A stretch of DNA of 33,434 nt. Origin: a virus. Below, piece after piece: positions 16,317 to 33,434 of this stretch. A program made the position numbers and the translations under genes. Location of the stretch: positions 1 to 33,434 of the IMG/VR virus record IMGVR_UViG_3300035034_000986. One strand, written 5' to 3'. Below the pieces are notes generated by a model. That model saw only the letters and a program-made list of their open reading frames with translations. It was not told the DNA's origin and did no database searches. Each line of letters begins with the position of its first letter. Positions within the stretch are counted from its first letter, which is position 1.

Positions 16317-16317
16317 G

Positions 16318-16899: not shown

Positions 16900-16903
16900 A
16901 CGC

Positions 16904-17524
16904 ATGAAAATCATACACGACTACAAAACAAATAAAATCAGTAGAGGACTCAACTCATGATCGTATATCATGCTACACCATACTTGACCCTGAGCTGATT
17001 TGAATCTCGTAAAGTACCTTGCTTGGTCTAGTGCACCCGTTTCTTGCCACTTTGTTGTGTGAAAAAAGGGCGATATATGGCAATTATCAGAGTTAGGCGC
17101 TAGGACATGGCACGCTTGAGTATCTAAGCGACAGTGACTGACTGAATTGAACCAACATGCTATAGGCATAGAAATATGCTCAAACTGAACGGACTTTAAT
17201 GACATTCAGAGGCAAGCGGTAAGAGAATTGACTAACTACCTCCTTTCAATGCTAAACCTTACTCCAGACAAGATAATCACCCATGCAGATGTTGCTGGAT
17301 TCAGAGGCAAGCGGGACGTGTGACCAAACTTCTGGAATAACAAGCATGCCAGTTGGGAAGAATACCAAAACAGCTACAAGAAAGAACCACTGACAGAGAA
17401 AGAGAGAAATAACTTAGAGCTATTAAAAAGATTGAACTCGTGGTTTTGGAATAAGTTTGAGTTTACGGAGTTGAGAAATGACTTGCACAAAACTAACAAA
17501 ACGATAGATTTAATATTAGAGTAA
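16904..17524 (+). CDS. N-acetylmuramoyl-L-alanine amidase (endolysin)
   Basis: 206 residues, amidase_2 / T7 lysozyme-like fold over residues 15-150. Zinc ligands and catalytic regions are visible: IMLHHTGPGAD (first His), ARTWHAGVSKR, HAIGIEICSNG, and ITHADVAGFRGKRDVGPNF with the second His and C-terminal zinc Asp. It cuts the amide bond between MurNAc and the stem peptide. The C-terminal 55 residues are charged and helical and may bind the wall or a holin partner. No signal peptide, so export would need the holin. At least nine TGA codons are in frame. Confidence 0.92.
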
Positions 17525-17545
17525 TACTTTATTATCTACTTATAT

Positions 17546-17872
17546 ATGATGAGTAACAGAAACACACCTGAATGACTAGCAGCTATCAAACTATTCCACT
17601 GAATGCTTGGGATCGCTTCGTTGCAATGAATGGAAGAGGCTGGGAAGAAAGTGACAGCTAAGCTAAAAGAACTAGGATACCTAGAAGCACATGAATCAAG
17701 GATCGACTGAAAAACTAGTGAATACAACTTCGATGCTAGAGAGAGAAAGTTTGCCCTAGAGGGTGAGCTGCTGGAAGAGAGAATGGATTTGCTGGACATC
17801 ACTTTCAATAGAGCGTACAGACTAATCCCAGAAGCAAGAGACGTTCTTGACGAGTACAAGAAATCGTTGTAG
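17546..17872 (+). CDS. Hypothetical helical protein ending the late operon
   Basis: 108 residues (107 if the second ATG at 17549 is used; that gives a 21-nt spacing to TTTATT). Largely charged and helical: AGKKVTAKLKELGYLEAHES, FALEGELLEERMDLLDI. Four TGA codons in frame. No family recognised. It is the last gene before the terminator, after the endolysin, so it may belong to the lysis or late-accessory set. Confidence 0.68.
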
Positions 17873-17896
17873 TCATGTGTATGGCATAAGAGAGAA

Positions 17897-17919
17897 GCCA
17901 CCTGCATGGGTGGTTTTTT
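17897..17919 (+). terminator. Intrinsic terminator of the late plus-strand operon
   Basis: Stem CCACC (17898-17902) and GGTGG (17909-17913) with a six-base loop, followed by six T residues. It lies 25 bases after the last late gene, where plus- and minus-strand operons converge. Confidence 0.82.
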
Positions 17920-17944
17920 CTATAGCAAATTTACGTAAGTTAGC

Positions 17945-17974
17945 TCAAGAAAGCCCCGTTCTTTCAAGGCGAGG
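17945..17974 (-). terminator. Probable terminator of the minus-strand operon
   Basis: On the minus strand CCTCG (17970-17974) pairs with CGGGG (17954-17958) around a CCTTGAAAGAA-type loop, with one G-U pair, followed by CTTTCTT. It begins 11 bases past the HNH-like gene. The plus-strand version has an A-C mismatch, so the minus direction is favoured. Confidence 0.5.
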
Positions 17975-17984
17975 TGTCTTTTTT

Positions 17985-18554
17985 CTATTTCTTTTTTTTA
18001 ATCTGTGCTCTCTTTCTTGCTTCTTGTGCGTCTCTTCTTCTTTCTTCTTTCCCTCAGTAGTATTCGCCTTGATGCGCCTTTGGTGTGAGTACATCGTTGT
18101 GCTTCTTAGGTGAAACAAATAAGAGATTCCATAACGCATGGACAGCACCCCCTTTCCATTTTGGTGTTCTATGGTGTAGGTGTGTCTTTTTCTGCCGTGC
18201 ATGGTCGTCTCATGTTCTTTGCGACTCATTGCAAGGCGGCATTTTTCACTTATCCATATCAAGTAATATCTTCTTGGCCTTCTCCCTTTCTGTAACTACA
18301 TCAACTCCGATTCAAGAAAAAAAGTCGCCTGAATCGACGACCTTTCTACGTAGCAACCCTGCTAACGCTTTCACTATTTTTCTTCTAGTCATACCCCAAC
18401 TGCTAGTGCCTTGGCCATCTAGCGCATCGGACAACTCTTTGCCTAACTTCGCAGCGTTACCATGCGTGCCTCTCCAGAACTTCCCTCCATTCTCTTTGTA
18501 TGATCTAGCGTTTGGGTCTCCTTGTATCCTTCATCATACTTTGTTTTTAGCCAT
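17985..18554 (-). CDS. HNH-like endonuclease candidate
   Basis: 189 residues with six or more TGA codons. The second half has THLHHRTPKWKGG, then HALWNLLFVSPKKHNDVL, an HH-(x)n-N-(x)n-H arrangement as in HNH/ENDO VII-type nucleases. The C-terminus is very basic (KEERRRDAQEARKRAQIKK). The N-terminal half (SYKENGGKFWRGTHGNAAKL, SWGMTRRKIVKALAGLL) could recognise a substrate. It is last in the minus-strand operon. HNH proteins near terminases assist packaging, but this one lies far from terL, so a free-standing endonuclease is also possible. Plus-strand ORFs across it are shadows. Confidence 0.6.
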
Positions 18555-18568
18555 AGGAAGCGGGTTGG

Positions 18569-18658
18569 TTAAATGTTATGCCTAATAGCTATTCACTCTA
18601 ATCTCTGTTTTATATCTTTATCTGACATTCATTTTGGTGTAGTTACTTTCGTTATCAT
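18569..18658 (-). CDS. Possible 29-residue peptide
   Basis: ATG to TAA on the minus strand gives MITKVTTPKGMSDKDIKQRL followed by EGIAIRHNI, with two TGA codons. It ends 14 bases before the HNH-like start, consistent with a tightly packed operon. It is too short for composition to prove coding, and no family is recognised. Apart from this, 18659-18715 holds nothing I can identify. Confidence 0.35.
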
Positions 18659-18715
18659 AGCACTGAATCATGTATAGAAAAGGACAGCTCTTTAGAAACA
18701 AAAACCAGTAAGTAA

Positions 18716-18742
18716 AGGCGCTTAAGTGGGGAAAAAGCACCT
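18716..18742 (-). terminator. Hairpin after the membrane-anchored gene
   Basis: Minus-strand AGGTGC pairs with GCGCCT (one G-U pair) around a 15-base loop, directly after the stop codon at 18748. The T-rich stretch that follows is interrupted. It may set this gene apart as its own unit. Confidence 0.4.
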
Positions 18743-18747
18743 ACTCT

Positions 18748-19515
18748 TTAGTTTTTAAGTAATACAACATCTGAGTTATATCACTCATAAGTGATTTTTA
18801 TGTCTTCAATGTATGTGAACTTCCGTCACTGAAGCTCGCTTACTGAAGAAAAAAATACTCAGATGCGAATTGGTGAGTTATCTTTTTTTATAATGTATTT
18901 CTGGGGATCGAAGTACTTATATTGATAACCTGGTCTAACTTCTGTGAAGTCTGTAGCGACTATAAATTTTTCATCTAATGGAATATGCCGTGTATATCAC
19001 CCTTTAATGTCGCTTGCAATCACTCGTCATGTTAGTCAAGACTTTACATCATTAGCAACTCAGCCATCAGTTTTTCTGAAGACATTAAAAAACCCTCCAT
19101 TATTTATAGAGTCAAAAAACACCTTTATGGAAAATCAGTATCAATCAGAGTTGGCATACCAAGGAAACTTTTCAACAAAGTCTGGAGAAAAATCTAAATC
19201 AATAACCATTTCAAGGTTTTTTGGCATTCTGTTGATGATAAATTGAGGGAATTTATTTGAATCAAACGATTCCCAAGAAGATAGATCGACTCAACTCATG
19301 ATAATTTTAGTATGTATTGATGCTTCCTCTGCTACTATGCCAGTGTTTATGTTTCATGTAATGGGAGGCACTGTATCTCCAGTTCATATAACCACAACTG
19401 GTGAAGTATTTGCTGTCGCACTTATCAATGCATATATTGTATAAAATAGAGTCAAAATGACAACTAGCAACGAGATAATGAAGATGTTATCTTTTTTTAA
19501 GAAATGGATGCTCAT
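18748..19515 (-). CDS. Membrane-anchored protein with secreted beta-rich domain
   Basis: 255 residues. An N-terminal membrane anchor (about 10-33, NIFIISLLVVILTLFYTIYA) precedes a 220-residue exported domain rich in aromatic and beta-forming residues (NLEMVIDLDFSPDFVEKF, FSIKVFFDSINNGGFFNVF, YQYKYFDPQKYIIKK, KFTYIEDIKITYEGY). The repeated VF...R.K and the closing IEDIKITYE suggest a sandwich fold like carbohydrate-binding modules, but this is weak. About 13 TGA codons in frame. The codon choice is more AT-rich (TTT, ATT, AAA) than in its neighbours, suggesting recent gain. A hairpin follows it. A surface-modifying or superinfection-blocking role is possible. Confidence 0.72.
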
Positions 19516-19572
19516 ACTGATTAAGGTTTTTAATTAAAGTTTTTCTGCTTTTTACTCTTCTGTATGCCCATC

Positions 19573-20367
19573 CTAGACGGATAGCTTAACCCAAGTCTCA
19601 CCGTTGATTATCATCTCATCTGCATTCTTTGTCTTTTCCTTCTGTGGTGTTATCTCGTAGTCTCATAAGACATACTGCGCTTCCCAGTAGTCAGATCAAG
19701 ATAACTCCTCCATTCTTGTTATTTTTCAACTATCATCTCATCAAATAAACCTTCACTTTGTGTAGTTGTTATTCGCACTTAACATCGCATTTCAGTAGAC
19801 TCTTGCATCTCAGGAGACCTCTGCATCTCAGGAGGCTCTTGCATTTCAGTAGACCTCTGCCTCTCAGGAGACCTCTGCATCTCAGTAGATACTTGCATTT
19901 CAGTAGACTCTTGCCTCTCAGGAGACCTCTGCATCTCAGTAGATACTTGCATTTCAGGAGACACTTGCATTTCAGGAGACACTTGCCTTTCAGTAGACCT
20001 CTGCCTCTCAGGAGACACTTGCCTTTCAGGAGATACTTGCATTTCAGTAGACTCGTGCCTTTCAGGAGACTCTTGCATCTCAGGAGACCTCTGCATCTCA
20101 GGAGACTCTTGCCTTTCAGGAGACTCTTGCCTCTCAGTAGACTCGTGCATTTCAGTAGACCTCTGCCTCTCAGGAGATACTTGCACTTCAGTAGACTCGT
20201 GCATTTCAGTAGACTCGTGCACACCCGCTTTGAGTCAGGTTGGATTCTTTTTCTATCCATCACCCAAGATCTCATCTGCTCACGTCAGAGAAGTCCTTTA
20301 ATGACTCGATCTGGTGTAGTGTCTTTCATTGATGATTCTTTGTGTTGTCAGTTAGTTTGTATTTCAT
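19573..20367 (-). CDS. Hexapeptide-repeat (left-handed beta-helix) phage protein
   Basis: 264 residues. The N-terminus YKLTDNTKNHQGKTLHQIES, then LKDFSDVSRGDLGGWIEKE and SNLTQ, is that of a widespread phage/prophage protein family whose members continue with tandem ARVYGNA-type units. Here 24 units of A-x-V-x-G-x follow, predicted to fold as a left-handed beta helix. The last 75 residues (NYTKGRFIGGDDSGKITR, YWEAQYVLGDYEITPQK) are not repeats. The repeat glycine is TGA in all 24 units. The biochemical role of the family is unknown to me. Standard-code tools break this gene and report large false antisense ORFs. The stop of the upstream gene lies two bases before its ATG. Confidence 0.88.
19789..20220 (-). 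repeat. 24 tandem 18-bp repeats, each with TGA as glycine
   Basis: Twenty-four exact 18-bp periods (432 bp). Each minus-strand unit reads GCA-(CGA/AGA/AGT/GAG)-(GTC/ATC)-(TAC/TCC)-TGA-(AAT/GAT/GAG/AAG/AGT); one unit has GCC at the third codon. The fifth codon is TGA without exception, and no unit uses GGN there. Variation is confined to alternating codons, so the array grew by recombination of a few unit types. Confidence 0.96.
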
Positions 20368-20369
20368 GG

Positions 20370-21059
20370 TTAGTTATTGTAATAAAAGTAGTTGACGTTT
20401 TTCAGTCGAGTTGCCGCATGGTCGTTTCCTGTTCGCTTTGCGGCTTTGTTTATGTTTGGGAATCCCTTATATCTTGTTGATCGTATATTCTTAAACGCTT
20501 CGTAGCTGTCTTCTGGTCTCTCATATATACACATCCTGTTTATCCCAACCTTCGGGCATGGTGCAGTATTTCAATTCTTGATGCCAAAACAGTTGTTATA
20601 TGATAGTCAATATCACTTTGTACAGTGGTTCGTTTCTGCTCACGCCACGCTCCATGCTAGGTGCTCTATATTGAATGGCTTTTGTCATTGTTGCACAATT
20701 GGTGCATTACCCACCTTAACTTCTCATGCTGAGCTATTACTAGCTTGTTCTAGCTGCTCTATTGCCATATCTCATTCTCAAGCCATTATCCTATTGTGCA
20801 TATCTAGTAGAGAGAACGCTAGAAGCTCTCTCCTCTCTCATTCTGCTGCTGATATCTCTAGAGCTTTTAGTGTGAAGTGTTTCACTTTGCTCTCGTGGTA
20901 TCTTACCTTTTGCTCTGCGTAGATCCTATGACCTTTTAGCTCTGACACTTCTTTCTCTATCCCGTCTATTTCACTTTGTAGATCTGTCAGAGACATAAAA
21001 GCGTATATCTGTCAGAATAGTATTGCAGGTATTGCAAGAATAGTGACTAAGTGCTTCAT
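20370..21059 (-). CDS. Secreted murein-hydrolase-like protein (lysozyme-superfamily candidate)
   Basis: 229 residues. An N-terminal hydrophobic segment (LVTILAIPAILFGQIYAFM) acts as signal or anchor. A coiled coil follows (LQSEIDGIEKEVSELK, EGERRELLAFSLLDM). The C-terminal 100 residues read LAWSVAGAETNHCTKGYGLS, NNCFGIKNGN, ERPEDSYEAFKNI, YKGFPNINKAAKRTGNDHA, then LKNVNYFYYN. This E..nC..g.s..NNcfGI pattern resembles lysozyme-like/glucosaminidase domains common in proteins of candidate-phyla bacteria; the Glu in GAETN is a plausible catalytic acid. It is separate from the amidase lysis cassette and is in an operon of membrane proteins. Confidence 0.7.
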
Positions 21060-21126
21060 AGGTTAGGATAGATCACTGTGACTAGCAGCTATAAAGATTT
21101 TATAGTCTAATAATACAATCAAACAT

Positions 21127-21750
21127 TTATACTCTCTTATATGTTACTCCATTGACTACTATAGTATCAGTATACTCTACTGTCTCTGTCTTTACTCAAA
21201 GCTTTTTCGTAAAGTCTGCTTCTGATATTCAGCTTAGCTCCTCGAACTTATCATAAGTAAAATGCGGTATTTCTAGCGTACTCTTGATGTCTCATAAGTC
21301 TTCACATCTATCAAATGCCAACCTCCAACAGTCTTTCATGTACTCATCTTTATTCTCTTTGTTTGATATTCTTTTAAGGTATCAATCCGTAGATCAATAT
21401 TCGGGGTTTAGTTTTTTCTCTGCGTCTGTCATTTCTCACTCACTCACCCAAACGAGTGTATCAAAATAGAACCGACCAGGGAATTCTATGCTTCATTGTT
21501 CTATATTTGTCTGAACTCAGAATATCCTGACCTTAGGTGTGTCTGTGTTTAGGTATCCTGTGTTGAAGTCTCCTGTATTTCGGTCTCCTGCGTTGCGGTG
21601 TCCTGCGTTGCGGTGTCCTGTGTTGCGGTCTCCTGCGTTTCGGTGTCCTGTGTTTCAGTCTCCTGTGTTGCGGTGTCCTGTATTTCGGTCTCCTGTGTTA
21701 CGGTCTCCTGTGTTTTTGTTTCCTGTGTTGCGGTTTCATGTGTTACCCAT
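21127..21750 (-). CDS. Pentapeptide-like (NTG) repeat protein
   Basis: 207 residues. Residues 2-72 are about 13 tandem five-residue units of the form N-T/A-G-D/H/N-R, an Asn-Gly-rich pentapeptide repeat seen in many phage and prophage proteins. A non-repeat domain follows: VRIFGVQTNIEQGSIEFPGR, FYFDTLVWVSEGEMTDAEKK, GYLKRISNKENKDEYMKD and the end TIVVNGVTYKRV. About nine TGA codons are in frame, but within the repeats only two glycines use TGA and the rest use GGA, unlike the neighbouring hexapeptide gene. Function unknown. Confidence 0.82.
21541..21735 (-). repeat. Thirteen tandem 15-bp coding repeats (NTG units)
   Basis: Period 15 bp. Most minus-strand units read AAC-ACA-GGA-GAC-CGC or close variants; CAC replaces GAC and GCA replaces ACA in some units. 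The plus-strand ORF over this array is a shadow. Confidence 0.9.
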
Positions 21751-21773
21751 CTATACTTAGTATATATTAAAAA

Positions 21774-22124
21774 TTAGTCATACAATCAAACGTCAACGTC
21801 TCATGTCATAGGCTCTATCTCTGCTGTAGGGATAGTCTCAGATGGCAAAGTGTGCGCCCATTCAAACGAATCCTTTATCAAGTCGTCTCACCTTGCGATA
21901 ACTTCTGCTCTCTCAGTTGATAGTTTTTGTAGTGTACTCTCAGCATCAGACATCTCTTGGTTTATCTCTTTAAGCCTTCACATAACCTGTGAGTACTCTA
22001 CTCCGTATATTTCTGACGCAGACTGGTGCACTTGCTTATTCTCTATCAATCAAAATCTAGCCAGTCAATAACCACATATAGCGACGATTACGATAAACAA
22101 TACAAGGTTTTTCACATATCACAT
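21774..22124 (-). CDS. Small membrane protein with coiled coil
   Basis: 116 residues. It starts ATG TGA TAT. One membrane segment (about 5-25, KNLVLFIVIVAICGYGLARF) is followed by a coiled coil (EYSQVMGRLKEINQEM, DAESTLQKLSTERAEVIA) and an acidic end. The layout resembles i-spanins or membrane-anchored phage exclusion proteins, but no family can be named. Its ATG overlaps the upstream TAA (TAATG), so it is coupled to the next gene. Confidence 0.68.
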
Positions 22125-22483
22125 TACAGTACAGTTAGAAGAATAAATCTTAGAGCGGCACATAGAATAAGCGATGACACAAATATATACCCTTTCGCTC
22201 GTTTGTTGTACTTACCCAATCAGTCGAAGTCAATTGTCAGTATAAATATCGTGCTTGCAACCACTATTATAAATGCTCCTAGAGTATGGCTCGATATATA
22301 AGCAAAATACAGTCACACTAATATGGCAAATTTATATGGCAACCGCCTTGCTTTTTCTATTGATCTACTCCCGTCTGGCACTCTAGGTAGTACGTATCAC
22401 TGGCTTTGTAGCTGCTCTGTTTTAGTGCGTAGTTCTCATTGCCTAAGCATTAGATGGGCATCTTCTTGTGTGAGTATTTGCAT
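22124..22483 (-). CDS. Multi-pass membrane protein
   Basis: 119 residues. A polar N-terminal 45 residues (LTQEDAHLMLRQGELRTKTE) is followed by three hydrophobic segments: about 52-66 (FAILVGLYFAYISS), 70-86 (LGAFIIVVASTIFIL) and 101-118 (YIFVSSLILCAALRFILL). Four TGA codons. No family recognised. Start and stop codons overlap both neighbours, so it is one part of a coupled run of small envelope proteins. Confidence 0.65.
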
Positions 22484-22578
22484 TATCCGTTACCGCTAGA
22501 GGATAAAGTGTCAGAAGCTACAAGCAGTACTAACATGACTCAATTGATTGTGACTATTCTTGTTTGCATTGTTATCAT
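22483..22578 (-). CDS. Possible 31-residue hydrophobic peptide
   Basis: Reads MITMQTRIVTINGVMLVLLV followed by ASDTLSSSGNG. It has a single hydrophobic stretch and ends TAATG, coupled to the membrane protein that follows. One TGA is in frame. It may be a small membrane peptide. Length limits certainty. Confidence 0.45.
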
Positions 22579-22597
22579 TACTTCTACACACAAGAGA

Positions 22598-22759
22598 TTA
22601 AAAGTTTTCCTCAAGATACAGTTCAAAGAGCTCACACATTTTCTTCTTTGCCTCCTCCCTGTCGACATCATCGAAGTCCTCCGACCACATATCGTCATTG
22701 TTGTAGATGAAGTCATCAGGGGTCATAGTAGGTACGAACCTCCATCAACTTATCGTCAT
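22598..22759 (-). CDS. Small acidic hypothetical protein
   Basis: 53 residues. It starts WRF-like (MTISGWRFVPTMTPDDFIYN) and continues with a very acidic stretch (DDMWSEDFDDVDREEAKK). One TGA. Its ATG overlaps the end of the upstream gene at an A-TGA string that is glycine in that gene. No family recognised. The charge suggests a protein- or DNA-mimic-like partner, which is only a guess. Confidence 0.6.
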
Positions 22760-22914
22760 CTTGCCATCTTCATCTCCTCTAAAATCTCTTCTGTGTAATA
22801 GAACTTCTGTTCTTCGATACTGAACGGGATCGTTGATAAGTGCTTTTCCCTCTCGGTATCCATTCCGTTGGTGATTTCGATAGGCTCTCCAGTCAATAGG
22901 TCTGTTACAAACAT
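22750..22914 (-). CDS. Small hypothetical protein, first gene of the membrane operon
   Basis: 54 residues (FVTDLLTGEPIEITNGMDTE, then EKHLSTIPFSIEEQKFYY). One TGA, one codon before the TAA. It is the first gene downstream of the minus-strand promoter at 22962-22989, with TTTATA 22 nt before its ATG. No family recognised. Confidence 0.62.
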
Positions 22915-22961
22915 GATAGATCAGGTAGAATATAAATGCATCCCTTACTTGAGATAATTAC

Positions 22962-22989
22962 ATTCTATAGATAAACATATGTTTTGCAA
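22962..22989 (-). promoter_or_regulatory. Promoter of the minus-strand accessory operon
   Basis: Minus-strand TTGCAA (22984-22989), 16 bases, TAGAAT (22962-22967), preceded by CTA. It has the same form as the promoters at 24623-24650, 28696-28723 and 29042-29069. It lies between the 74-residue protein gene and the accessory genes. Confidence 0.62.
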
Positions 22990-23012
22990 TAGATTTATAC
23001 ACTTTCTGATAA

Positions 23013-23237
23013 CTAATCGTTTTTTAGTGCTACAGTAGTATCAACTCAAGCAGCCTCGAGCTTGGAAATATAGTTCTTTCACATCTTACCGCTAGCATAA
23101 CAAGCGTACAATCGATTTTGGCTTATGTTGTTAAGCTTGAAAAACTCAGACATTAGCAACCTTCTCCCAAGCTTCTCCTCCATCTTGATAAGCGCAAGCC
23201 TTATCTGTGATCTCATCTTAAATTCATTTATATTCAT
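23013..23237 (-). CDS. Small helical protein, possible DNA-binding regulator
   Basis: 74 residues. The central part, RLLMSEFFKLNNISQNRLYA then SGKMGKNYISKLEAAGVDT, has the spacing of a helix-turn-helix (helix, turn at NNISQ, second helix) but no clear family match. It would be the best candidate in this genome for a regulator of the repeated operators at 28629-28898. Two TGA codons. Its 5' end overlaps the nuclease gene by 20 bases. Confidence 0.6.
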
Positions 23238-23868
23238 TATAGGTTTTAATAAGTTCTAAAACATCACCCTTGTGCATGTCCTCCATCTTCTTCTCAAAAG
23301 CTAGGGTCAAATTAAATGTGATCATATTGTGTTGAACGTCATACTTCTTGACAACCTTCTTGTAAACCTCCACAAAGTCACAACTCTCTGTGCCTGTTAG
23401 CTTCATGTATATATATGCTTGTAGTGCATACTCCTCGTAAGGTGTCATAGTAGATCACATCCTTGGCTTGTTCTCTGGCGTTGTCTTTGTTGCTGCTGTC
23501 TTGTAGTCAATACACTTGTCATTGTAGACACAGTCGACATATCAACAGAAGGTGACACCTCGGATCTCTCACTCAACATACTTCTCTCTTTCTGGAGGCC
23601 CAACTCACTCCTCTTCATATCACTCAGCGTTGCTAAATAGAGTCTCAAGGGTTTTCAGCATGTTTTTCTTCTCACTCTCATGCCATCCCGTGTCTTTTAT
23701 AAATCTTACTGCCTCCTCTTTCTCTCCTGTCTGCATGAACTTATGGAAGGCTGTTCCAAGGTCAAAGTATGTTTTTGGTGCTGAGTCTCTGAATCATAAC
23801 AGATAACGTCACCCCCAAGTGGCTTTGTCGTTCTTGTAGCATTTTAATTGTGATGCAGATAGCTTCAT
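23218..23868 (-). CDS. PD-(D/E)XK nuclease (Cas4/RecB-like)
   Basis: 216 residues. Standard decoding splits it into three fragments; code 25 restores one gene with eight TGA codons. Features of the PDDEXK_1 family: the opening LSASQLKCYKNDKATWGGRY, LGTAFHKFMQTG, EGEIRGVTFCGYVDCVYNDK then CIDYKTAAT (the catalytic D..DYKT core), and YEEYALQAYIYMKLTG (the QxxxY motif). No cluster of four cysteines is obvious, so an iron-sulphur centre is unlikely. It probably processes DNA ends during replication or recombination, together with the SSB-like protein just upstream. Confidence 0.88.
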
Positions 23869-23883
23869 GGTATTTTTTGACAT

Positions 23884-23902
23884 AAAAAAGCCCCGAAGGG
23901 CT
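23884..23902 (-). terminator. Intrinsic terminator after the SSB-like gene
   Basis: On the minus strand AGCCC (23898-23902), TTCG loop, GGGCT (23889-23893), then five T residues. It lies between the SSB-like stop and the nuclease ATG, so the nuclease depends on readthrough or a further promoter. Confidence 0.8.
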
Positions 23903-23906
23903 ATAA

Positions 23907-24557
23907 TTAGAACGGTAGATCTTCATCAGTGTCTGTGTCGTCCATTATACTTTTATCTGTGTGTGCTGTCTTAATATTGTTTCTGTATTCAATGAGGTCT
24001 CCTGCCGCTTCTACTGCTTGCTCTCATTCCTTCTTAGTAACTACCGATCAGATCTCAAACGATGGTAATCTGTAAGGACTCGCAGCGTCTGTCATTAGAA
24101 CGGACTCAATATACTTGATTTTATTTTGTGTCTGGTCAAGCTTCTTCATAAGCTCACTAAAGTTATAGTATGCCTTACCCTTCAAGAAGAACTGTATAAC
24201 CTCTCCTTTATGCAACACAGTCAGTGCAATGTGCAGTTTAGCACCTGCTGTCGATAGATCTGCCTTGATATCTTTGTACGCTCCTTTAGCGAATCTGCCG
24301 TTATTGAATATACTCACTGTCAGCTCCTCTGAGAAGTAGTCAATCTCGTTACTCCAGAATCATGCTTTGTGTGCTGCGCTGTATCACTTGATAGTGTAAC
24401 CAACCTTGAGCAACACAAACTCTCACAACTCAAATATGATGTTCTCTGACTTGTCACCGTCCCAGTATTCAAAGTGTCCAGCGTCTCAGCCACCCTTCCA
24501 TTTGAGGTACTTACTAACTGGCGATGCTGATTCTTTCTTCTCTCCATAAATAGGCAT
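23907..24557 (-). CDS. Single-stranded DNA-binding protein-like
   Basis: 216 residues with six TGA codons. The C-terminus SIMDDTDTDEDLPF is the acidic, phenylalanine-ended tail typical of SSB proteins, which recruits partner proteins. The body contains a probable OB-type beta region (ENIIFELGEFVLLKVGYTIK, ELTVSIFNNG, KLHIALTVLHKGEVIQFFLK) and a helix SELMKKLDQTQNKIKYIE. It would coat single-stranded DNA at the fork. It has its own promoter (24623-24650) and terminator, consistent with high expression. Confidence 0.78.
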
Positions 24558-24622
24558 GGTAATTATGATTTACTTATAAAACCATCGCTTTTAACGTCTT
24601 CGTGGGTTGGACGATTACTCAC

Positions 24623-24650
24623 ATAATACATTGTTTTATGTGTATTGCAA
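24623..24650 (-). promoter_or_regulatory. Promoter of the SSB-like gene
   Basis: Minus-strand TTGCAA (24645-24650), 16 bases, TATTAT (24623-24628), preceded by CTA. This is the best match to the repeated promoter form and is identical in both boxes to the plus-strand promoter at 29042-29069. It lies in the 100-bp gap between the VRR-NUC and SSB-like genes, which holds no gene. Confidence 0.68.
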
Positions 24651-24657
24651 TAGATTT

Positions 24658-24918
24658 TTATAGATTATTTACTCAATCCACACCTCTACAGACTTCCGCC
24701 CTGAATCAGTGGCTTTGTAGCTCCTCTATCCTGTACTCCTGTAGGTCTCTTAACTTTGTCTTGTCTCACTTTACCTCGATGAACCGTGGTGTCTCTCAGG
24801 CCTTGAGCGCTAGCAGATCAGGGATACCGTTCCTGTTGGTCTTCATCAGCTTTAATACATAGTATCACCTCGCTTCTAATTTCTTTATTAACTTCGCCTG
24901 TACCTTTGACTCTAGCAT
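24658..24918 (-). CDS. VRR-NUC domain nuclease
   Basis: 86 residues. A single VRR-NUC domain: LESKVQAKLIKKLEARGYYV, NGIPDLLALKAGETPRFIEV (the PD...EVK catalytic core), KGDKTKLRDLQEYRIEELQS and HGFRAEVCRGVD. Glycine before DKTK and in the SHGFRA turn are TGA. Stand-alone phage VRR-NUC proteins next to SF2 helicases are common; the pair probably resolves DNA structures in replication or recombination. The start overlaps the helicase stop. Confidence 0.9.
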
Positions 24919-26135
24919 CTCATAAAATGTGAATACGTAAAACTCTTCTTACCTAACACAGTCTTGTATACCTTACTCTCTACGCCTCACACCATGAACA
25001 GCCAATGCACAAGTGTCTCTCAACGGTCAATCGTTGTCAACCTGTCCCTCGCTTGTCGATAACTCGTTGCGCTGTAGTCGATACTGTAGAACACTATCTC
25101 GTCAGCCTCTTTGTAACTTACTCACTCTCTACCGTTCCTTACTTGCTTGATGATGCTCTTATTAGTAGACCTGAACTCTTGGAAGTCCTCAGTCACAAGG
25201 TCTCACAACACCTGCTTCAATATCTCTTTCTCCGCCTGATAATAATAGAATATCAACAACTTCTTGTCTCTAAAATTGTCCCTTATGTACTCAGCCTTAG
25301 ACAAATCAAGTATCGCCGTCTCTCAATTATCCATAATAACACTACCCCCGCACAACTGTCTGTACTTAGTCAGCTTTGTTGCAGCGCTATCCATCACCAC
25401 ATTGCCGTCTTTTAACCTCAAAACGTCTTGTTTCTTTACGCTCTTGAGTAACGTCAGAAGTTCTGGTGTTGGGCGGACATTGTGTACTGTCTCGGTTATT
25501 TTGTTGCTGAATCAGCTTTGTTTTTGGCTGAACGATATAATATACTCAGTGATCTTCTCGAATATCTTCTTTTTCTTTGCGTTACTATAATCGTTTATAT
25601 TGTATCAGTTGATTTTCTTCTGTGTTACCTTCACATAATCGCTCGCCCGTTTATAGAAGCTAGCATATTTCCTGAACGGTCAACGTCACGTCATCCAAAA
25701 TTGGTGGAACAACTGTGAGTAACTCTCTGGGCTAGGCGTTCAGCTCATCAATATCATATAATCACAATCTATTTTCCTTACAGCTTTTGCGTTTGCTGGT
25801 GGTTTTGGGAAAGATGAGAAGGTGTGTGCCTCGTCAACAATCACAACATCAAAGTGTCACTCCTGTTTCCCTATAGTCTTGTAGTTGTTTGTAGACAACA
25901 CTAGATCGAACTCTGCTCACATCAATTTGTAGTCGTCTACGATATTGCCATTGTCGATACAGAGTTTCTTTGTCACAAACAAGACCCTCTTCGCTCAAAG
26001 GCCTTTGGCTATACTCAATGAAGTGAGAGTTTTTCACGTCCTCACCTCCATCGCTAGATACAGTAGTCTTTTGTCTCTAAGGATATCCACCCCATCAGAG
26101 ACGATTCTTTCTTGGTACTCCCTTAGACTAAACAT
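24912..26135 (-). CDS. SF2 (SNF2-like) DNA helicase
   Basis: 407 residues with about 16 TGA codons. Walker A: YLAMEVRTGKTLTS (residues 27-40). DEAH box: VVIVDEAHTFSSF near 100. Motif III: ILMSGTPSPESYSQL. The C-terminal lobe has EIVFYSIDYSATSYRQARDR followed by LTTIDRGE, the motif V-VI block of phage SF2 helicases, where the usual TG or SG of motif VI is replaced by IDRGE. It probably remodels forks or branched DNA with the VRR-NUC protein. Its ATG overlaps the primase stop (TAATG). Confidence 0.9.
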
Positions 26136-28552
26136 TATGACCTTACCGATAGGAGGTCACTAACGTCAATTCCTTCATAGGCTCTAAACCTCTTGCCTCA
26201 GACCATCTTTTGCACTTCGTCAATCTTGAACCTCTCAAAGTGATACCTCATCCTCTTACAGATAGTGTTGTGCCCCCAAGGCTTGTGCCCTGTACCCCTT
26301 AGCCACCTATTGAAGTCGTCCGAGACGATATGCTTTAATGACATTACGCCATGCTGTATGTCTCACTGCTCCTCTTTCTCTATAAGGTACTGTAACACAA
26401 GGTCTTGCTCATCGATAAAGTCTTGCATGCCTCCCACAAGCTCAGTAGCCATTTTTATAGTCCCCCTCTCCAAAACTCTCATAAGTCATGAGATCATCCA
26501 GTTTAGTATCTGTGGTCACTCTTTCTCAACTAGTACTTGATCCATTCTCTCCACCTTCTCTACTGTCTCAATATCTCATAAACATTGCACAATAATCCCC
26601 CTACGTTTGATCGAGTTATCCTTGTCCTTTATCCATGGCTCTTTGTTTGTACACATAATCAACGAAGCCTTATTCTTGAACGGCACACGATCCCTGTACT
26701 TTCTGTTCATGTTTATCTCTTCTCAAGATATGAGCTTCTTGATAAGGTGGTCATCAAGTTGCACTTTCCCCATATCATAATCGATAGCCAATGTCTTTCC
26801 GATCATTCATGGTAAAGAGAAGTCCTCACCCATTTTGTTGGTTATTGTGAGTCCGACGGCTCTACTTCACATAATACCAGCGAGTGTCTTTGTGAATACA
26901 CCTTTACCATTACCACCTCATCATATCAATATCAACGCTCTCTCTCATGGGTTTCATCAAACTAGGCAGATACCACAGAACTCTTGTATTGTCTCCATAA
27001 CAGCCTCCTTGTCTGTGTACCCACACAACATCCGCTTGAGAAAGTCTAGCCATCTCTCTGGATCAGTAGAACCTAACACCTCGTTGTGGTCAATATCTAT
27101 AGTCCCAGATATGAAATCTTTTCTCGTTATGTCCGACACACTATAAGAGTCGCCTGTGATTGTTATTTTGTGGTGCTTCAATGGTATGACGTTGTCGTCT
27201 GGCTCGTGTAAAGTCCTAGTATTTCAGGATATATCAGTAGACTTTATCTTTATGAAAGTAAGCACCTCCACTACTTGCTTAGTGGTGACCTTGTCAAACT
27301 TGTTGTCAAGATGAGATAGTATAATATTCTTTAGTACATCCTCGTCTATTATGGAGTACAATGGTGAGTCACCTTTTGAAATGTAAACATCACCTCTATG
27401 ATACGCAAAAGTGTGTTCTAATAAGAAGAGCTTCGCTTCTTCTAGTGGGTTGAGTCTCTTCGCTAGGAACTTCTGATCCAATGGTTTGTTCTCTAGTAGT
27501 GATTCCCTTTTTCATTCTACTTTCTCTTTCTTTGGCTTCTCTGTAATAGCTCTCTCCTCTTTCATGCCTGCATCATATATGTGAGTAAACTTCTCTTTGA
27601 AGTAGTCAAACGTGTCCTTAGCGGAAAGTCACAGCTCTTTATTGACAAAAGAAAAGCAGTTGTATGCGTCCTCATCAGACGACAAATACTTAGATCAATC
27701 ACTTATTAGTAGGTTAGACCCCTTTACTATAAACAACGAACTGTTCTTGCCATCCTTTGGAGATAGCAAGTGTATGTAATTGGAAGACTCTTTATATCAA
27801 GCCATGCCTAACTCTTTACTAACAATGTCAGCAAAATCGGTGCTGCTTATATCACATATGAGATCGAAGACCTCACCGTCACCGTTACTATACTTCGTTT
27901 TCTTATGACTACTCACCACTTTAGATAAAGTCTCTTTTGCGTAACTGGAAAGGTCACTGAATATACTGCAGTTCTTGTCTTGCTCTTTCGCTACACTCAC
28001 AGTGAAGGCTTCACTTAGCCCATACCTCTCAGATCTCTTAGCGTTCACCGTTCATATACAACGGGTTATCCTTGAGATGTTCTTACATGAGTGGTCAGAC
28101 CTCATGGAGTCCGGGAGTAGCAAATCACTTTGGTTATAGAGCCATTGTGTTGCGTTCTTGTACTCGACTAGGTCAGTCTCGATAAGCTTTGGTGCTGTAT
28201 AGTATATGTGCAACCCGTTTCAAGAGTATACTATATACCTCCAGTCAGATAACACCTTGTGCTCCTTGTAAGCAGACACAATAAAAACAACAGCTTCCTC
28301 AATGACACTATCTGGTGTTTCACCACCTAGATTCGATCTAATATCAATATCGATAACCATGTATCACTTACTAGTCACATCCACATCCTTCGTGTATCTT
28401 CAAATCCTCACTCATCATCAAACAACAAAGTACAGATCAGTATGACCAGAAAGGTCTTTAGGTACACTCCTCAAAGACACAGGCTTTCAGTTAGGGAAGT
28501 GCCTGAACTCAATGTTCTTGCCATCACAACCAAGATTCTTTAGAAACGTCAT
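26135..28552 (-). CDS. Primase-helicase: AEP primase fused to SF3 helicase
   Basis: 805 residues and about 26 TGA codons. Residues 1-250 are an archaeo-eukaryotic type primase: GYMVIDIDIRSN has the catalytic D-x-D pair, and YSGNGLHIYYTAP has the S-G-x-G-x-H motif. A D5_N-like linker follows. The SF3 helicase occupies about 530-720: ALILIGGGGNGKGVFTKTL (Walker A, with glycines from TGA TGA GGT GGT), KTLAIDYDMG (Walker B-like), RVPFKNKASLIMCTNKEPW (motif C) and SIKRRGIIVQ (arginine finger). It would open the origin and prime synthesis. No DNA polymerase is encoded, so the host enzyme must extend. First gene of the minus-strand replication operon. Confidence 0.93.
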
Positions 28553-28564
28553 AATTTTTTACAT

Positions 28565-28622
28565 ACACATATAAAGACCCCTATGCTCACTTCCTTGCGT
28601 GCTTAGAGGTCTTTATATGTGT
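28565..28622. repeat. Long inverted repeat in the primase leader
   Basis: Arms 28565-28586 and 28601-28622. ACACATATAAAGACC pairs perfectly with GGTCTTTATATGTGT, and after one mismatch CTA/TAG, then after another GC/GC, continue the stem. The loop is 14 bases. It lies 13 bases upstream of the primase ATG, within its leader, and the arm supplies the TTTATA box 23 nt before the ATG. It may be a translational control hairpin or an origin element. Confidence 0.85.
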
Positions 28623-28628
28623 ATATGT

Positions 28629-28646
28629 GTCGACTGGCCAGTTGAC
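28629..28646. promoter_or_regulatory. 18-bp palindrome, operator candidate
   Basis: GTC-n-ACTGGCCAGT-n-GAC: perfect ten-base core with matching outer triplets and a single mismatched pair. It lies between the primase hairpin and the -10 of the minus-strand promoter, a position where a bound dimer would block transcription of the replication operon. Confidence 0.5.
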
Positions 28647-28695
28647 AATATAACAAAAAGGCGACTATATGCAAGGAAGTTTTTTAGGTATTTGC

Positions 28696-28723
28696 AGTAT
28701 AACAAGTTACACACTTAATGCAA
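28696..28723 (-). promoter_or_regulatory. Promoter of the replication operon
   Basis: Minus-strand TTGCAT (28718-28723), 16 bases, TATACT (28696-28701), preceded by CTA. It drives the primase, helicase and VRR-NUC genes. The leader of about 140 nt includes the palindrome and the long hairpin. Confidence 0.65.
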
Positions 28724-28740
28724 TAGCAAAGTGGTTCGTT

Positions 28741-28898
28741 ACCTGTGCATTACACAGGTTAGTGGTATTTACAGTGTAAACATTTGTTGCTTAATATATT
28801 TTTACACGTGTAGTACACAGATCGCTTTTTAGGTATATGTGAAATGAAAAACCAGTCATAGATTGAGAAATTGATGATTGCATGTGTTACACAGGTTA
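28741..28898. promoter_or_regulatory. Cluster of palindromic operator or iteron sites
   Basis: Sites: ACCTGTG-catta-CACAGGT (28741-28759), TTTACA-g-TGTAAA (28768-28780), TACACGTGTA (28803-28812) and TGTGT-t-ACACA (28883-28893). They share the half-site TACAC/GTGTA. A 12-mer TTACACAGGTTA occurs at 28750-28761 and again at 28887-28898, and TTTTTAGGTAT occurs at 28681-28691 and 28826-28836, so the region looks like an imperfect duplication of about 90 bp. The second 12-mer lies inside the spacer of the plus-strand promoter. Confidence 0.6.
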
Positions 28899-28905
28899 AT
28901 ATACT
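28878..28905 (+). promoter_or_regulatory. Plus-strand promoter overlapping an operator
   Basis: TTGCAT (28878-28883), 16 bases, TATACT (28900-28905), the same boxes and spacing as the divergent replication promoter. The spacer contains TTACACAGGTTA. No ORF starts in the 136 bases between it and the next promoter, so it gives either a long leader or a short non-coding RNA. Confidence 0.58.
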
Positions 28906-29041
28906 ATAAACTTCTTTAAATCAATATATATATAAAAACATAGAAGCGCTATATAGTGAAACTCTTTCTGGTTTTCAAGTTGTGAAACTGTGTAGTTGCA
29001 CTCTTCACAGAGAATGTAAAGTAGTATATTGCTATTGCCTA

Positions 29042-29069
29042 TTGCAATATAGGGGACTGGCAGTATTAT
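29042..29069 (+). promoter_or_regulatory. Promoter of the methyltransferase operon
   Basis: TTGCAA (29042-29047), 16 bases, TATTAT (29064-29069), preceded by CTA and inside the palindrome TATTGCAATA. It lies 35 bases before the ATG of the first plus-strand gene of this operon. Confidence 0.66.
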
Positions 29070-29104
29070 TGGTGTTAGTTATTTAGATGTAAATTGTTGT
29101 TGTT

Positions 29105-29710
29105 ATGAACGAAGAACAAAGACTATGATTCAGCTACGCCGTAAAGGAGCGAAATAAGGCAGTAGGGAACGGAGAAGGTATGCTATTCCCTAAGATAACA
29201 CACCCTAACGACGAGCTAGAAGTAAAGGCTCTACGAACTGGAGGGATAAATATCGTAGTAGAGGAGATAGTGGAGGGCATAGAGGCTCAGACTAATGTTC
29301 TTTTCTTAGACGCTATGATAGACACAGCCTTTGGAACTCTATGAGAACTACACAAGATGTGACACGAGTATCATCCAGAATTACAATACCAACAAGCAAA
29401 TAGAGATATAAGGGCTTCTAAGGTAAGCAAGGAATGATTGTTAGAGTACACAGACTACATAGAGAAGGAACTAAAGAACAAAACGATCAATTATGATCTT
29501 ATCAGCTCACACTATCACTATATCATACACGTTTCCTTGCTATTAGCTGAGTGATTAGTAGGAGACAGACTATTCGCTGCTTGCATGGAGGTATGCAGGT
29601 CCAACTTCGCCAAACTACCATACGAAAAAGACAGCAATGGAAAGGTAAGGAAGGGAGATTGATTTGTAGCACCGAGCCTAGGGCAATTCATCTCCAAGAA
29701 GACTTCATAA
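29105..29710 (+). CDS. Hypothetical protein heading the methyltransferase operon
   Basis: 201 residues with six TGA codons. Mostly helical and polar: NVLFLDAMIDTAFGTLGELH, VSKEGLLEYTDYIEKELKN, HYHYIIHVSLLLAEGLVGD. There are two cysteines in AACMEVCRSN. I do not recognise the family. Its TAA overlaps the ATG of the first methyltransferase (TAATG), so it may be a partner of that enzyme or an early regulatory protein. TTTAGA lies 23 nt upstream. Confidence 0.75.
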
Positions 29711-30888
29711 TGAAAGAAACTTTGTTGCATTGAGATTGTTTGGAGAAATTAAAGGAAATGGAGGACAACTCCATCGATAGTATGGTTACAGATCCCCCTT
29801 ACTGAATATCATTCATGGGTAAGAAACGAGATTATGACGTACCACAGAAAGAGGTACGAGAAGAATGCCTAAGGGTACTAAAACCATGAGGTCATGCTTT
29901 GATTGCTTGCTGAACAAGAACACAACACAGAATGGCAGTAAACCTGGAGGATTGAGGGTTTGAGATTAGAGATATTATTGCGTGGGTATATGGTAGTTGA
30001 TTTCCCAAATCACTCAATCTGGGAAAAAGCGTGGACAAGTTGCAGGGTAATGAAAGGGAGGTTATGTGAAAAACAATATATGCAGATTGAAGTAAATGAA
30101 GAAGAACAGCAAAACACTTTACAGGTGTTGATTTATGAGGTTCTAGCGTTAATACCAAATGAACATCACCACACGAATGACGAGGTACAGCTCTTAAACC
30201 TGCAATGGAACTCCGAACACTATGCAGAAAGCCACTATCAGAAAAGACTATTGCAAAGAATGTATTGAAGCATTGAACAGGTGGCATCAATATAGATGAG
30301 TGTAGGGTGGGAACTACTGATAAATTGGGAGGAGGTGCTGAAAAACGTGCAACTTTTGCTGGTAAAGAGGGGTGGGATAGACCACGAATGCACGATAAAG
30401 AGAAAGAAAAATCCCATTCTGATAAAATCAAACATAACGTAAAGCACGCAGAGGGTTTAGGCAGATTCCCTGCTAACTTAATACATGATTGAAGTGATGA
30501 GGTGGTTGGGTTGTTTCCAGATAGTAAAAGTGGTACAGTAAAAGGTATATATGGACATAAAGAATGATTTGCAAAAGGTGAGGTATATCAAGAACACAAA
30601 GGTAGTTCTTGATCTGCAGCTCGCTTCTTCTATTGCAGTAAGGCTTCAAAAAGCGAAAGGAATAAGGGGCTAGAGGGGCAATGTACACACCCAACGGTTA
30701 AGCCTATAAAGCTTATGCAATACCTATGCAGACTTATAACCCCCGTATGATGAACCATACTAGACCCTTATATGTGATCTGGTAGTACAGGTATATGAGC
30801 TAAGTTGTGAGGTTTTGATTTCATAGGTATAGAGAGAGAGGAAGAGTACATGGATATAGCGAGGGCAAGGATGAAAGCACGAGGCTAG
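29710..30888 (+). CDS. DNA methyltransferase 1 (N6-adenine or N4-cytosine, beta order)
   Basis: 392 residues. Motif IV DSMVTDPPYGISF is near the N-terminus and motif I TILDPYMGSGSTGIGAKLGG is near the C-terminus, the beta-class order, with the target-recognition region between. VLKPGGHALIACGTRT and FEIRDIIAWVYGSGFPKS are further catalytic-domain motifs. DPPY favours adenine-N6, but N4-cytosine cannot be excluded. No restriction endonuclease is seen nearby, so it probably protects phage DNA against host restriction. About 20 TGA codons in frame. It is closely paralogous to the next gene but differs in the central region. Confidence 0.92.
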
Positions 30889-30917
30889 TATGGCACAATT
30901 TATAACAACACTTCATA

Positions 30918-32153
30918 ATGAAAGAAATTTTGTTGCATTGAGAATGTTTGGAGAAATTAAAGGAAATGGAGGACAACTCCATCGATAGTATGGTTACAGA
31001 TCCCCCTTACTGAATATCGTTCATGGGTAAGAAATGGGATTATGATGTACCGCAGAAAGATGTATGGGCTGAGTGTCTAAGGGTATTGAAGCCATGAGGT
31101 CATGCACTGATCGCTTGCTGAACAAGAACGCAACACAGAATGGCAGTAAATCTAGAGGATTGAGGGTTCGAGATTAGAGATATTATTGCGTGGGTATATG
31201 GTAGTTGATTTCCCAAATCACTCAATCTGGGAAAAAGCGTGGACAAGTTGCAGGGTAATGAAAGGGAGGTTAATGATTATGTAGCACCAGATGGCAAAAA
31301 AAGGTGTGGTGGCAATAGTTTTTCTGTAGGAAAAGAGCCAGATGGTAGATGAATAAATAAATCAACCAAATGAACATCACCACACGAATGACGAGGCACT
31401 GCACTCAAGCCTGCAATGGAACTCCGAACACTATGCAGAAAGCCACTATCAGAAAAGACTATTGCAAAGAACGTATTGAAGCATTGAACAGGTGGTATCA
31501 ATATAGATGAGTGTAGGGTGGGTAGTGAAAAGATAAATGTCACTTGTCACTTGTGACAAGACTTAATGTGAGCCATGAAATGAAATCCTTGCGACAAAGA
31601 TACTACTTATACTACAACTAATACTTGAAGATTCCCTGCTAACTTAATCCACGATTGAAGTGATGAGGTTGTTAATCTGTTCCCAGAGACGAAACCAAGT
31701 AAACAAAACAAAATAAGTGATAAAAGAATAAATGATGGGAAATCAATGTTTATAGATGAAGTTCGTACACCTGAAAATAGTTATGCAGATAGAGGCTCTG
31801 CAGCTCGTTTCTTCTATTGCGCCAAGGCTTCAAGAAGCGAAAGGAATAAGGGGCTAGAGGGGTTTGAGAAAAAGCCAGGATGAAGTAATGCAAAATGATA
31901 CACTAGAGATGTGGCTAATTGAAACGATAGAAATAGACCAGTCGCAAATTATCACCCAACGGTTAAGCCCATTAAACTTATGCAATACTTAGTAAGACTT
32001 ATAACACCTAAGTGATGAACTATACTAGACCCTTATATGTGATCTGGTAGTACAGGTATATGAGCTAAGTTGTGAGGTTTTGATTTCATAGGTATAGAGA
32101 GAGAGGGAGAGTACATGGATATAGCGAGGGCCAGGATGAAAGCACGAGGCTAG
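30918..32153 (+). CDS. DNA methyltransferase 2, tandem paralogue
   Basis: 411 residues. Same motif order: DSMVTDPPYGISF and TILDPYMGSGSTGIGAKLGG. The first 118 residues and the last 67 are nearly identical to methyltransferase 1, as is a central block of about 50 residues (TSPHEGRGTALKPAMEL onward). Segments at about 119-148, 202-237 and 316-345 are unrelated. This one has HLGQDLMGAMKGNPCDKD and a longer linker before HPTVKPIKLMQYL. It probably has a different target sequence. Begins after a 29-bp spacer that is itself repeated before the TM2 gene. Confidence 0.92.
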
Positions 32154-32182
32154 TATGGCACAATTTATAACAACACTTCATA

Positions 32183-32374
32183 ATGAAAAACAAAACAACA
32201 GCGATACTTCTTGCACTATTCCTTTGAGGCATAGGAGCACACCAATTCTATTTATGAAACACAAAGAGAGGGTTCTTGTATATGGTATTCTGCTGGACAT
32301 TCATACCAGTACTTGTATCTATATTTGACATCCTTATGATCATGGGAGACAATACAGGTAAATTTACAGAATAA
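32183..32374 (+). CDS. TM2-domain membrane protein
   Basis: 63 residues. It is almost entirely a TM2 domain: TTAILLALFLGGIGAHQFYL (first helix with the GxxGxHxFYLG motif), GNTKRGFLYMVF, then WTFIPVLVSIFDILMIM (second helix with the D of the DxxxI motif). TM2 proteins are small two-helix membrane proteins found widely in bacteria and phages; role unclear. The glycines of FLGGIG and YLGN include TGA codons. Leader TTTATA is 19 nt upstream, copied from the methyltransferase spacer. Confidence 0.85.
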
Positions 32375-32383
32375 ACAACTTAG

Positions 32384-32797
32384 ATGGCAAGAGCTGACAA
32401 GAAGAAGAACGTGGCGAAAGTTGCGGAAATGCTAGTAAATAACCCACATGCTACAGAGAGAGAGATTGCAGGCTCTACATGAATGAGCAACTGAACAGCA
32501 CATAACTGTAAAAACGAACTTAAGCAAAACTGAGCAAAAGACGATACCATAGCGTATATCGTGCTGTCTGCAAAGAATAGACTAAGGAAGGTTAGTGCAG
32601 TATTTGATAGGTTTGTAGACGAGTCATGTGCAAAGGATGTGCTCAATAGAAGCGACGCCAGCCTAATAAAAGAAATAGCTAGGGACGATATGGCAAGGAT
32701 TAACGTCCTCTGATGATCTATCACAGACAGCAAGGGAGGCATAAGCCCTCTTAATAGTGACCAAGCAGCAGCATTGGACGCTTTACGTTCTCTGTAG
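32384..32797 (+). CDS. terS: Terminase small subunit candidate
   Basis: 137 residues. The N-terminal 60 residues hold a helix-turn-helix: NVAKVAEMLVNNPHATEREI then AGSTGMSNGTAHNCKNEL, as in small terminases that bind the pac site. A central helical region (VLSAKNRLRKVSAVFDRFVD) suits oligomerisation. It ends three bases before the terL ATG, the standard order. TGA glycines lie within the helix-turn-helix (STGMSNG) and at VLGGS. Confidence 0.82.
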
Positions 32798-32800
32798 TAG

Positions 32801-33434
32801 ATGACAAAACGGGACGCGTTAAACGATAAAGCGGTGAGGGTTGAGTACTTCAGAGACAACTTCCCTGCTTTCTTTGCGTACCATTTCTGACGACCATTCA
32901 CCAAGTTCCAAGTCGAGTGGATGAAGTCTGTGCAAAGTAGAAAGAATACTTTCATTGAGGCATTCAGAGCTAGTAGAAAGACTACTATGGTCAGATGATA
33001 TGTTGTGTGGTGTATATGTTACAAGGTCGAGCCGCACATAGTTGTCCAGTCATACGAGTCAAACCTTTCATCCGAGTGGGTAAGGAATGTTGCAAAGATG
33101 TTATTCAAGAGGTCAATAGTCAACGACTACGGGCTACTTTTCCCTTTGGAGACAAAAAAGGACGACCTCAAGAAGAAGTCATTACATAACTTTGACACAA
33201 CAAACGGCGTCAAGATCAATAGTAAGTCATTAAGGCAAGTCTTGAGGTGAGCTAATGAGTACGACATGGAAGACGATAAGAGTGCGAGACCCACTCTATT
33301 GGTTATGGATGATGTGGACGTTGAGAGTTCTGTTGAGAATCCAGACATAGTGGAAAAGAACTACAACAAAATTATGGGTGAGACAATCAGCGCACTTGAT
33401 CCGCTAAGAAGGAAGATAATATTCTTATGAAATA
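32801..33434 (+). CDS. terL: Terminase large subunit, N-terminal part (ATPase domain)
   Basis: Starts at 32801 and continues through the 127-bp repeat into position 128 of the window; the whole protein has 458 residues. Motor-domain features: adenine-binding KFQVEWMKSVQSRKNTFIEA, a P-loop AFRASRKTTMVRG that lacks the usual GxGK glycines, and Walker B TLLVMDDVDVE. It hydrolyses ATP to drive DNA into the head through the portal. The mature protein continues with the nuclease domain at 1-870. Three TGA codons are in this part. Confidence 0.94.
33308..33434. repeat. Terminal direct repeat, right copy (assembly overlap)
   Basis: Exact copy of positions 1-127, in the same orientation and the same terL reading frame. 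Confidence 0.95.

Follow-up and report, generated by a model that had tools for sequence, protein, structure and literature searches.

A predicted divergent promoter-operator region with a hairpin in the primase leader, in a phage that reads UGA as glycine

The window analyzed here is the whole 33,434-nucleotide viral record IMGVR_UViG_3300035034_000986. With TGA translated as glycine (table 25) it can be read as one clean gene map in which in-frame TGA codons are numerous. The standard code breaks the window into short frames, and long continuous frames need TGA as a residue; recoding of TAG was rejected, as it gives no clean gene map of the window. Positions 1-127 are identical to 33308-33434, a direct terminal repeat of 127 bp, so the phage genome is probably circular and complete in this record, at about 33,307 bp. 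The terminase gene spans the contig ends. The rightward gene block runs from 29105 via the contig ends to 17872 and encodes a pyrophosphohydrolase-like protein, two methyltransferases, an HTH protein in the small-terminase position, the terminase, structural proteins and an amidase (the names of TerL and the structural genes were assigned partly from gene order and by eye). The leftward block, from 28552 to 17985, encodes the primase-helicase, a SNF2-type helicase, a VRR nuclease, a PD-(D/E)XK protein and others. Three features of the map may be recorded in passing: the tandem DNA methyltransferase genes (29710-30888 and 30918-32153) are 74% identical and apparently duplicated, gene 13526-14356 has an in-frame tandem repeat with a 27-bp period near its start (13540-13670), and the leftward operon includes beta-solenoid/bactofilin-like and pentapeptide-repeat proteins at 19573-20367 and 21127-21750.

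The locus under study and its two flanking genes are as follows.

28553..29104, no strand: divergent non-coding control region, from the gene map under table 25
26135..28552, minus strand: primase-helicase gene (SF3, D5/P4 type), first of the leftward operon
29105..29710, plus strand: nucleotide pyrophosphohydrolase-like gene (phrog_671), first of the rightward operon

The gap is 552 bp long, the sole divergent gap in the map and the longest of the 11 gaps of at least 60 bp. A first-pass annotation, made from the sequence alone, had placed it between the replication and methyltransferase operons; this holds, with the correction that the first rightward gene is pyrophosphohydrolase-like and the methyltransferases come after it. 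An 80-aa frame within the gap (28759-29001, minus strand, GTG start), which covers the palindromes described below, was rejected as a gene by eye.

The primase-helicase has a D5-type SF3 helicase domain, and the SaPI5 primase-helicase is among its nearest solved structures. SF3 helicases of the D5 type belong to the class that melts origins. An AEP primase domain is a tentative assignment: its motifs I and II can be aligned with 10 of 13 relatives and motif III with none, in a part that has no Pfam match and is modeled with pLDDT below 50. For a winged-helix C-terminal domain there is likewise no Pfam match, and alignments extending past the helicase have an rmsd near 20. The model of the whole protein (mean pLDDT 43.5) is usable from about residue 490 onward. 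At its 3' end the primase gene is overlapped by the next gene by one base.

The gap contains four of the five copies of a candidate promoter class.

28696..28723, minus strand: promoter PL1, TTGCAT-N16-TATACT, with GTGTA within the spacer
28647..28674, minus strand: promoter PL2, TTGCAT-N16-TATATT
28878..28905, plus strand: promoter PR1, TTGCAT-N16-TATACT, containing the palindrome TGTGTTACACA
29042..29069, plus strand: promoter PR2, TTGCAA-N16-TATTAT
24623..24650, minus strand: fifth promoter of the class, with TACACA in the spacer, in the gap upstream of gene 23907-24557

The pattern TTGCAW-N15..17-TATNNT was written from two sites that fit the description in the first-pass annotation. It matches five times in the genome where 0.70 matches are expected by chance, a number reached in none of 100 shuffles, and all five matches have a 16-base spacer and point toward the next gene. 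At the other 14 spacings (10 to 24) there are four matches in total, one of them a second reading of PL2. Since two sites defined the pattern, three of the five are independent evidence, and two of those three lie in the gap, which has two copies in each direction. A general sigma-70 scan is not enriched (5 matches against 3.3 expected), and its consensus may not be that of the host. Three of the five spacers (PL1, PR1 and the fifth promoter) contain TACAC or GTGTA; neither word is present in the spacers of PL2 and PR2. The two genome copies of TTGCTATTGC adjoin the -35 boxes of PL1 and PR2, ACTGGCCAGT follows PL2 and ACTGGCAGT lies inside PR2, each of the latter two occurring at that place alone. 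We read the gap as holding two matched pairs of divergent predicted promoters. The matching divergent promoters proposed earlier are thus borne out as sequence matches, with their number in the gap doubled from two to four.

Around and within these promoters lies a set of short palindromes.

28768-28780, no strand: palindromic site TTTACAGTGTAAA, carrying the TACAC/GTGTA word
28803..28818, no strand: overlapping palindromic sites TACACGTGTA (28803-28812) and GTGTAGTACAC (28808-28818), with the TACAC/GTGTA word
28883-28893, no strand: palindrome TGTGTTACACA, with the TACAC/GTGTA word, inside promoter PR1
28741-28759, no strand: fifth palindromic site, ACCTGTG-CATTA-CACAGGT
28628..28647, no strand: 20-bp palindrome TGTCGACTGGCCAGTTGACA with one mismatched pair, directly downstream of the PL2 -10 box

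The number of copies of the word in the gap is non-random. TACAC or GTGTA occurs 10 times in the 552-bp gap and 66 times in the remaining 32.7 kb, and none of 1000 shuffles reaches 10; elsewhere the mean is 1.07 per 552-bp block and the maximum in any other block is 3. At least four palindromes built on this word had been claimed for the gap, and four were located (arms of at least 5, spacer of at most 1), a count not reached in any of 1000 shuffles or in any of 229 other blocks. Perfect inverted repeats in general (arms of at least 6, spacer of at most 8) are not enriched as a class, with 3 against a mean of 1.9 and as many in 93 of 300 shuffles. The longer word TTACAC is found at 9 places genome-wide, 5 of them within 28707-28892, and is rarer in the whole window than in its shuffles (9 against 20.9). 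By eye, the plus-strand TTACAC copies are spaced by 43, 52 and 85, near whole helical turns. The duplicated 12-mer TTACACAGGTTA is present as described, in exact copies at 28750 and 28887; other 12-mers repeated within 200 bp are found elsewhere in the genome too. The palindrome noted near the minus-strand -10 box is also there, at 20 bp and not 18, and has no further match in the window at up to three mismatches.

These elements point to a divergent promoter-operator hub of the phage, a full explanation to which we give a probability of roughly 0.7. From the pattern matches we infer active promoters and a regulator that acts on them with one sign or the other. On the left, the replication operon would be transcribed from two promoters of one class; on the right, two more of that class would serve the operon for methyltransferases, packaging and structural proteins. 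TACAC/GTGTA would be the recognition word of a single DNA-binding protein, which would bind it in the spacers of PL1 and PR1 and at several palindromes located between these two promoters; from its place between the -35 and -10 boxes, and perhaps by bridging sites, this protein would switch PL1 and PR1 on or off jointly. The same protein probably acts also at the fifth promoter, at 24.6 kb, and PL2 and PR2, which lack the word in their spacers, are probably under other control. That one regulator could set both directions had been suggested before, and the suggestion is well supported, at the level of sequence, by a single promoter class on both sides and by the word shared among the spacers of PL1, PR1 and the fifth promoter. 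The gene behind the fifth promoter (23907-24557) belongs to phrog_6706, of unknown function, and lies 4 kb from the gap, whose regulator may act there.

The earlier candidate for this regulator is a small protein.

23013..23237, minus strand: 74-residue protein

The frame exists under table 25. It has no Pfam or PHROG match, and its single-sequence model (mean pLDDT 70, helical) has no structural match at E 0.001; what the structural listing does contain, at E 3 or worse, consists largely of entries for sigma factors or RNA polymerase. Among the proteins scanned, none matched a repressor or integrase family.

The same gap may also serve in replication, and the first-pass annotation had noted origin features in it. 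One of these is a single segment.

28896..28955, no strand: 60-bp segment with the highest AT content in the genome (17% GC), possibly an unwinding element

That the gap is a replication origin we hold as a tentative reading, at somewhat under an even chance. If the gap is primarily an origin, the TTACAC copies would be iterons of an initiator, either the adjacent primase-helicase or another protein, unwinding would take place at 28896-28955, and the hairpin described below would act in single-stranded form as a place of priming or assembly, a role proposed for pRN1. The clustering of TTACAC in the gap is consistent with this, although the repeats sit in promoter spacers, as fits operators. 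The AT-rich stretch touches the second copy of TTACACAGGTTA, yet it is also where PR1 transcripts would begin. The minima of GC skew (28594 locally, 28807 on the rotated circle) and of purine skew (28830) fall within 28594-28830, with the maxima near 17.9 kb; however, skew tracks gene direction throughout, its minima and maxima coinciding with the changes of direction, so that skew cannot separate replication from transcription. Origin features (AT-rich stretch, repeats, adjacent helicase gene and skew minimum) do coincide here, and of these the skew is not decisive. An origin of the DnaA-box type was rejected, and the lack of any DnaA-box match in the gap speaks against the origin reading more generally.

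The neighboring gene bears on the question. It encodes an SF3 helicase domain of the D5 type along with the two aligned AEP motifs, and relatives of the primase have a non-coding gap adjoining their gene. A distant primase alignment, useful for gene order alone, comprises the best 80 of 382 loci, with identities of 23-30%. We surveyed gap positions in 16 distant relatives, 13 of them non-redundant full-length ones from these 80 loci and the others L012-L014; L011 was left out because its gene is split. A gap of at least 100 bp lies 3' of the primase in 13 of the 15 that have a value, and on the 5' side the gap is at most 35 bp in 14 of 15 that have one, whereas in this phage the order is reversed and the gap is 5', which argues against the origin. 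A stem-loop origin is present in pRN1 and has been proposed in phage BIP-1 (PMC4234260, in the part available), which favors it. The origin reading allows for promoters in the gap and is compatible with the promoter-operator hub; the two functions are possibly combined, with origin function plausible rather than demonstrated.

To return to the promoter-operator hub, its leftward arm includes an RNA structure, and the flanking gene starts share a short motif.

28563..28624, minus strand: hairpin in the primase leader, arms 28563-28586 and 28601-28624, 62 bp, 3' arm holding TTTA
28589..28598, no strand: hairpin loop segment, with a 10-nt complement at 28671-28680
29082..29085, plus strand: TTTA, start signal for the rightward operon, 23 nt before its ATG

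A hairpin had been noted here as 58 bp long; the structure stands, with a full length of 62 bp. Its fold has a z score of -6.15, and the window containing it has the lowest 100-nt folding energy in the genome (-43.3 against a mean of -16.4, sd 5.1). It is placed in the leader of any primase transcript from predicted PL1 or PL2. An intrinsic terminator was rejected for want of a U run after the stem, and Rfam has no match within the window.

Shine-Dalgarno sequences are nearly absent from the phage genes. TTTA starts 16-27 nt upstream of 27 of 41 gene starts, compared with 6% of positions (binomial P 1e-23); the 41 are all gene starts as first listed, and the count is 27 of 36 when five doubtful starts are left out. 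Ten of the 14 exceptions have a later in-frame ATG with TTTA 18-27 nt upstream, a count that includes ATGs in doubtful genes and is biased because it chooses among starts. Of the relatives, L008 shows the signal clearly (7 of 12 starts, P 4e-6) and L005 weakly (3 of 26, P 0.04); the counts for L009 (3 of 12), L004 (1 of 1) and L006 (0 of 2) are not significant. At PR2, PL1, PL2 and the fifth promoter, TTTA comes after the -10 box and so would be transcribed if these promoters are real, which favors a role in RNA. The same position contradicts TTTA as a -10 box for each gene, a possibility rejected also because no second strongly conserved element stands upstream. Folding lends the RNA role no support: gene-start TTTA sites are no more accessible than other TTTA sites (30 against 89 sites, P 0.56). 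The place of Shine-Dalgarno sequences seems to be taken in the phage by TTTA about 20 nt upstream, apparently a start signal common to this phage group. Two Absconditabacteria genomes are Shine-Dalgarno-scarce and without CCUCC according to the available text of PMC10783764. In the literature on these lineages, including the accessible portions of PMC6851277 and PMC10783764, we found no Shine-Dalgarno substitute that matches the TTTA motif.

Under the promoter-operator hub, every leftward transcript would contain the hairpin, with the primase TTTA paired in its stem, and primase output would probably be lowered post-transcriptionally; we infer this effect from the fold and from the place of the motif in it. 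A more elaborate proposal, which we consider unlikely, is an RNA lock in which the primase mRNA has its TTTA hidden by the hairpin, a state that would be altered in PL1 transcripts when the loop pairs with 28671-28680. The frequency of TTTA at gene starts and the near absence of Shine-Dalgarno sequences are in keeping with it, as is the absence of CCUCC reported for Absconditabacteria (PMC10783764, available text). The primase TTTA, in the 3' arm, is the least accessible of 28 gene-start TTTA sites, although gene-start sites as a group are not more accessible than others. The 10-nt complement of the loop arises in 1 of 2000 shuffled flanks and would be carried by PL1 transcripts alone, but it shares sequence with the PL2 -35 box, and it is sterically doubtful that a 14-base loop could form ten pairs. 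Less likely still is the widest form of the idea: that in the phage and its relatives UUUA about 20 nt upstream, and not a Shine-Dalgarno sequence, marks starts, that the hairpin buries the UUUA of the initiator and pairs, through its loop, with one of two alternative leaders at the 5' end, and that this RNA switch, based on the start signal of a recoded bacterial lineage, shares 552 bp with the common promoter switch and the origin. That the 20-bp palindrome and the hairpin are functionless leftovers or chance structure in AT-rich DNA is very improbable: inverted repeats with arms of at least 6 are indeed not enriched as a class, but the hairpin is more stable than all its shuffles and every other 100-nt window of the genome, and the palindrome stands alone in the window within three mismatches.

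No locus with this control region was found in any collection scanned, from which near-identical records may be left out. Single-protein scans of viral contigs with the primase, the second helicase and TerL gave no relatives, and neither did the scan of genome contigs. A portal scan gave 5 loci (6 in the alignment), with structural modules only, and the upstream ends of L008 and L009, when inspected, had no comparable control region. A methyltransferase scan gave 66 loci, none matching the replication or control part of the phage, and one for the 20-bp palindrome gave 0 matches. Among phage records there was no near match to 14001-33434, and the gap itself had two chance-level matches. One locus, L096, has a 45% identical helicase, yet matches the primase weakly. 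Contigs L003, L004, L005, L008 and L009 have portal genes that are 40-52% identical, and L004, L008 and L009 read far better under code 25.

To our knowledge, little is known of gene control in phages of code-25 bacteria. The region described here is of an ordinary kind in an unusual setting, a phage reading UGA as glycine. Its promoter class, operator word and start signal can now be searched for in other code-25 phage genomes and tested cell-free. If it is true that the hairpin hides a start signal of a non-Shine-Dalgarno kind, it would offer a handle on translation start in a lineage with two genomes reported as Shine-Dalgarno-scarce and devoid of CCUCC (PMC10783764, available text).

As sequence matches, the gap combines outward-facing promoters with palindromes that overlap them, as promoter-operator switches do. 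Switches of the lambda OR/OL type are divergent phage promoter-operator switches. The predicted arrangement here resembles them in its divergent promoters and its several palindromic sites built on one word, some of them inside spacers. It differs in that no repressor gene was recognized adjacent to it and no lysogeny gene in the phage, in having two promoters of one class per side, and in the non-standard code of the phage. Phages of Absconditabacteria and Gracilibacteria that use code 25 read TGA as glycine and have many in-frame TGA codons (PMC10746230, in the portion available, which describes no promoters, start signals or origins); the present phage is like them in its many TGA glycine codons. 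The iteron origins of SaPIs and the putative ones of SCCmec lie downstream of the helicase gene (PMC7581432, available text). The phage gap is like these in having direct and inverted repeats next to an initiator helicase gene, and unlike them in lying upstream of that gene and in being mixed with promoters. In pRN1, and by proposal in phage BIP-1, a large stem-loop origin lies next to the replication-protein gene, 3' of it in pRN1 (PMC4234260, in the part available). The phage stem-loop is 5' of the gene, in its leader, with short repeats also present; it shares with that of pRN1 its large size and its place in non-coding DNA adjoining a gene with an SF3 helicase and, putatively in the phage, AEP motifs.
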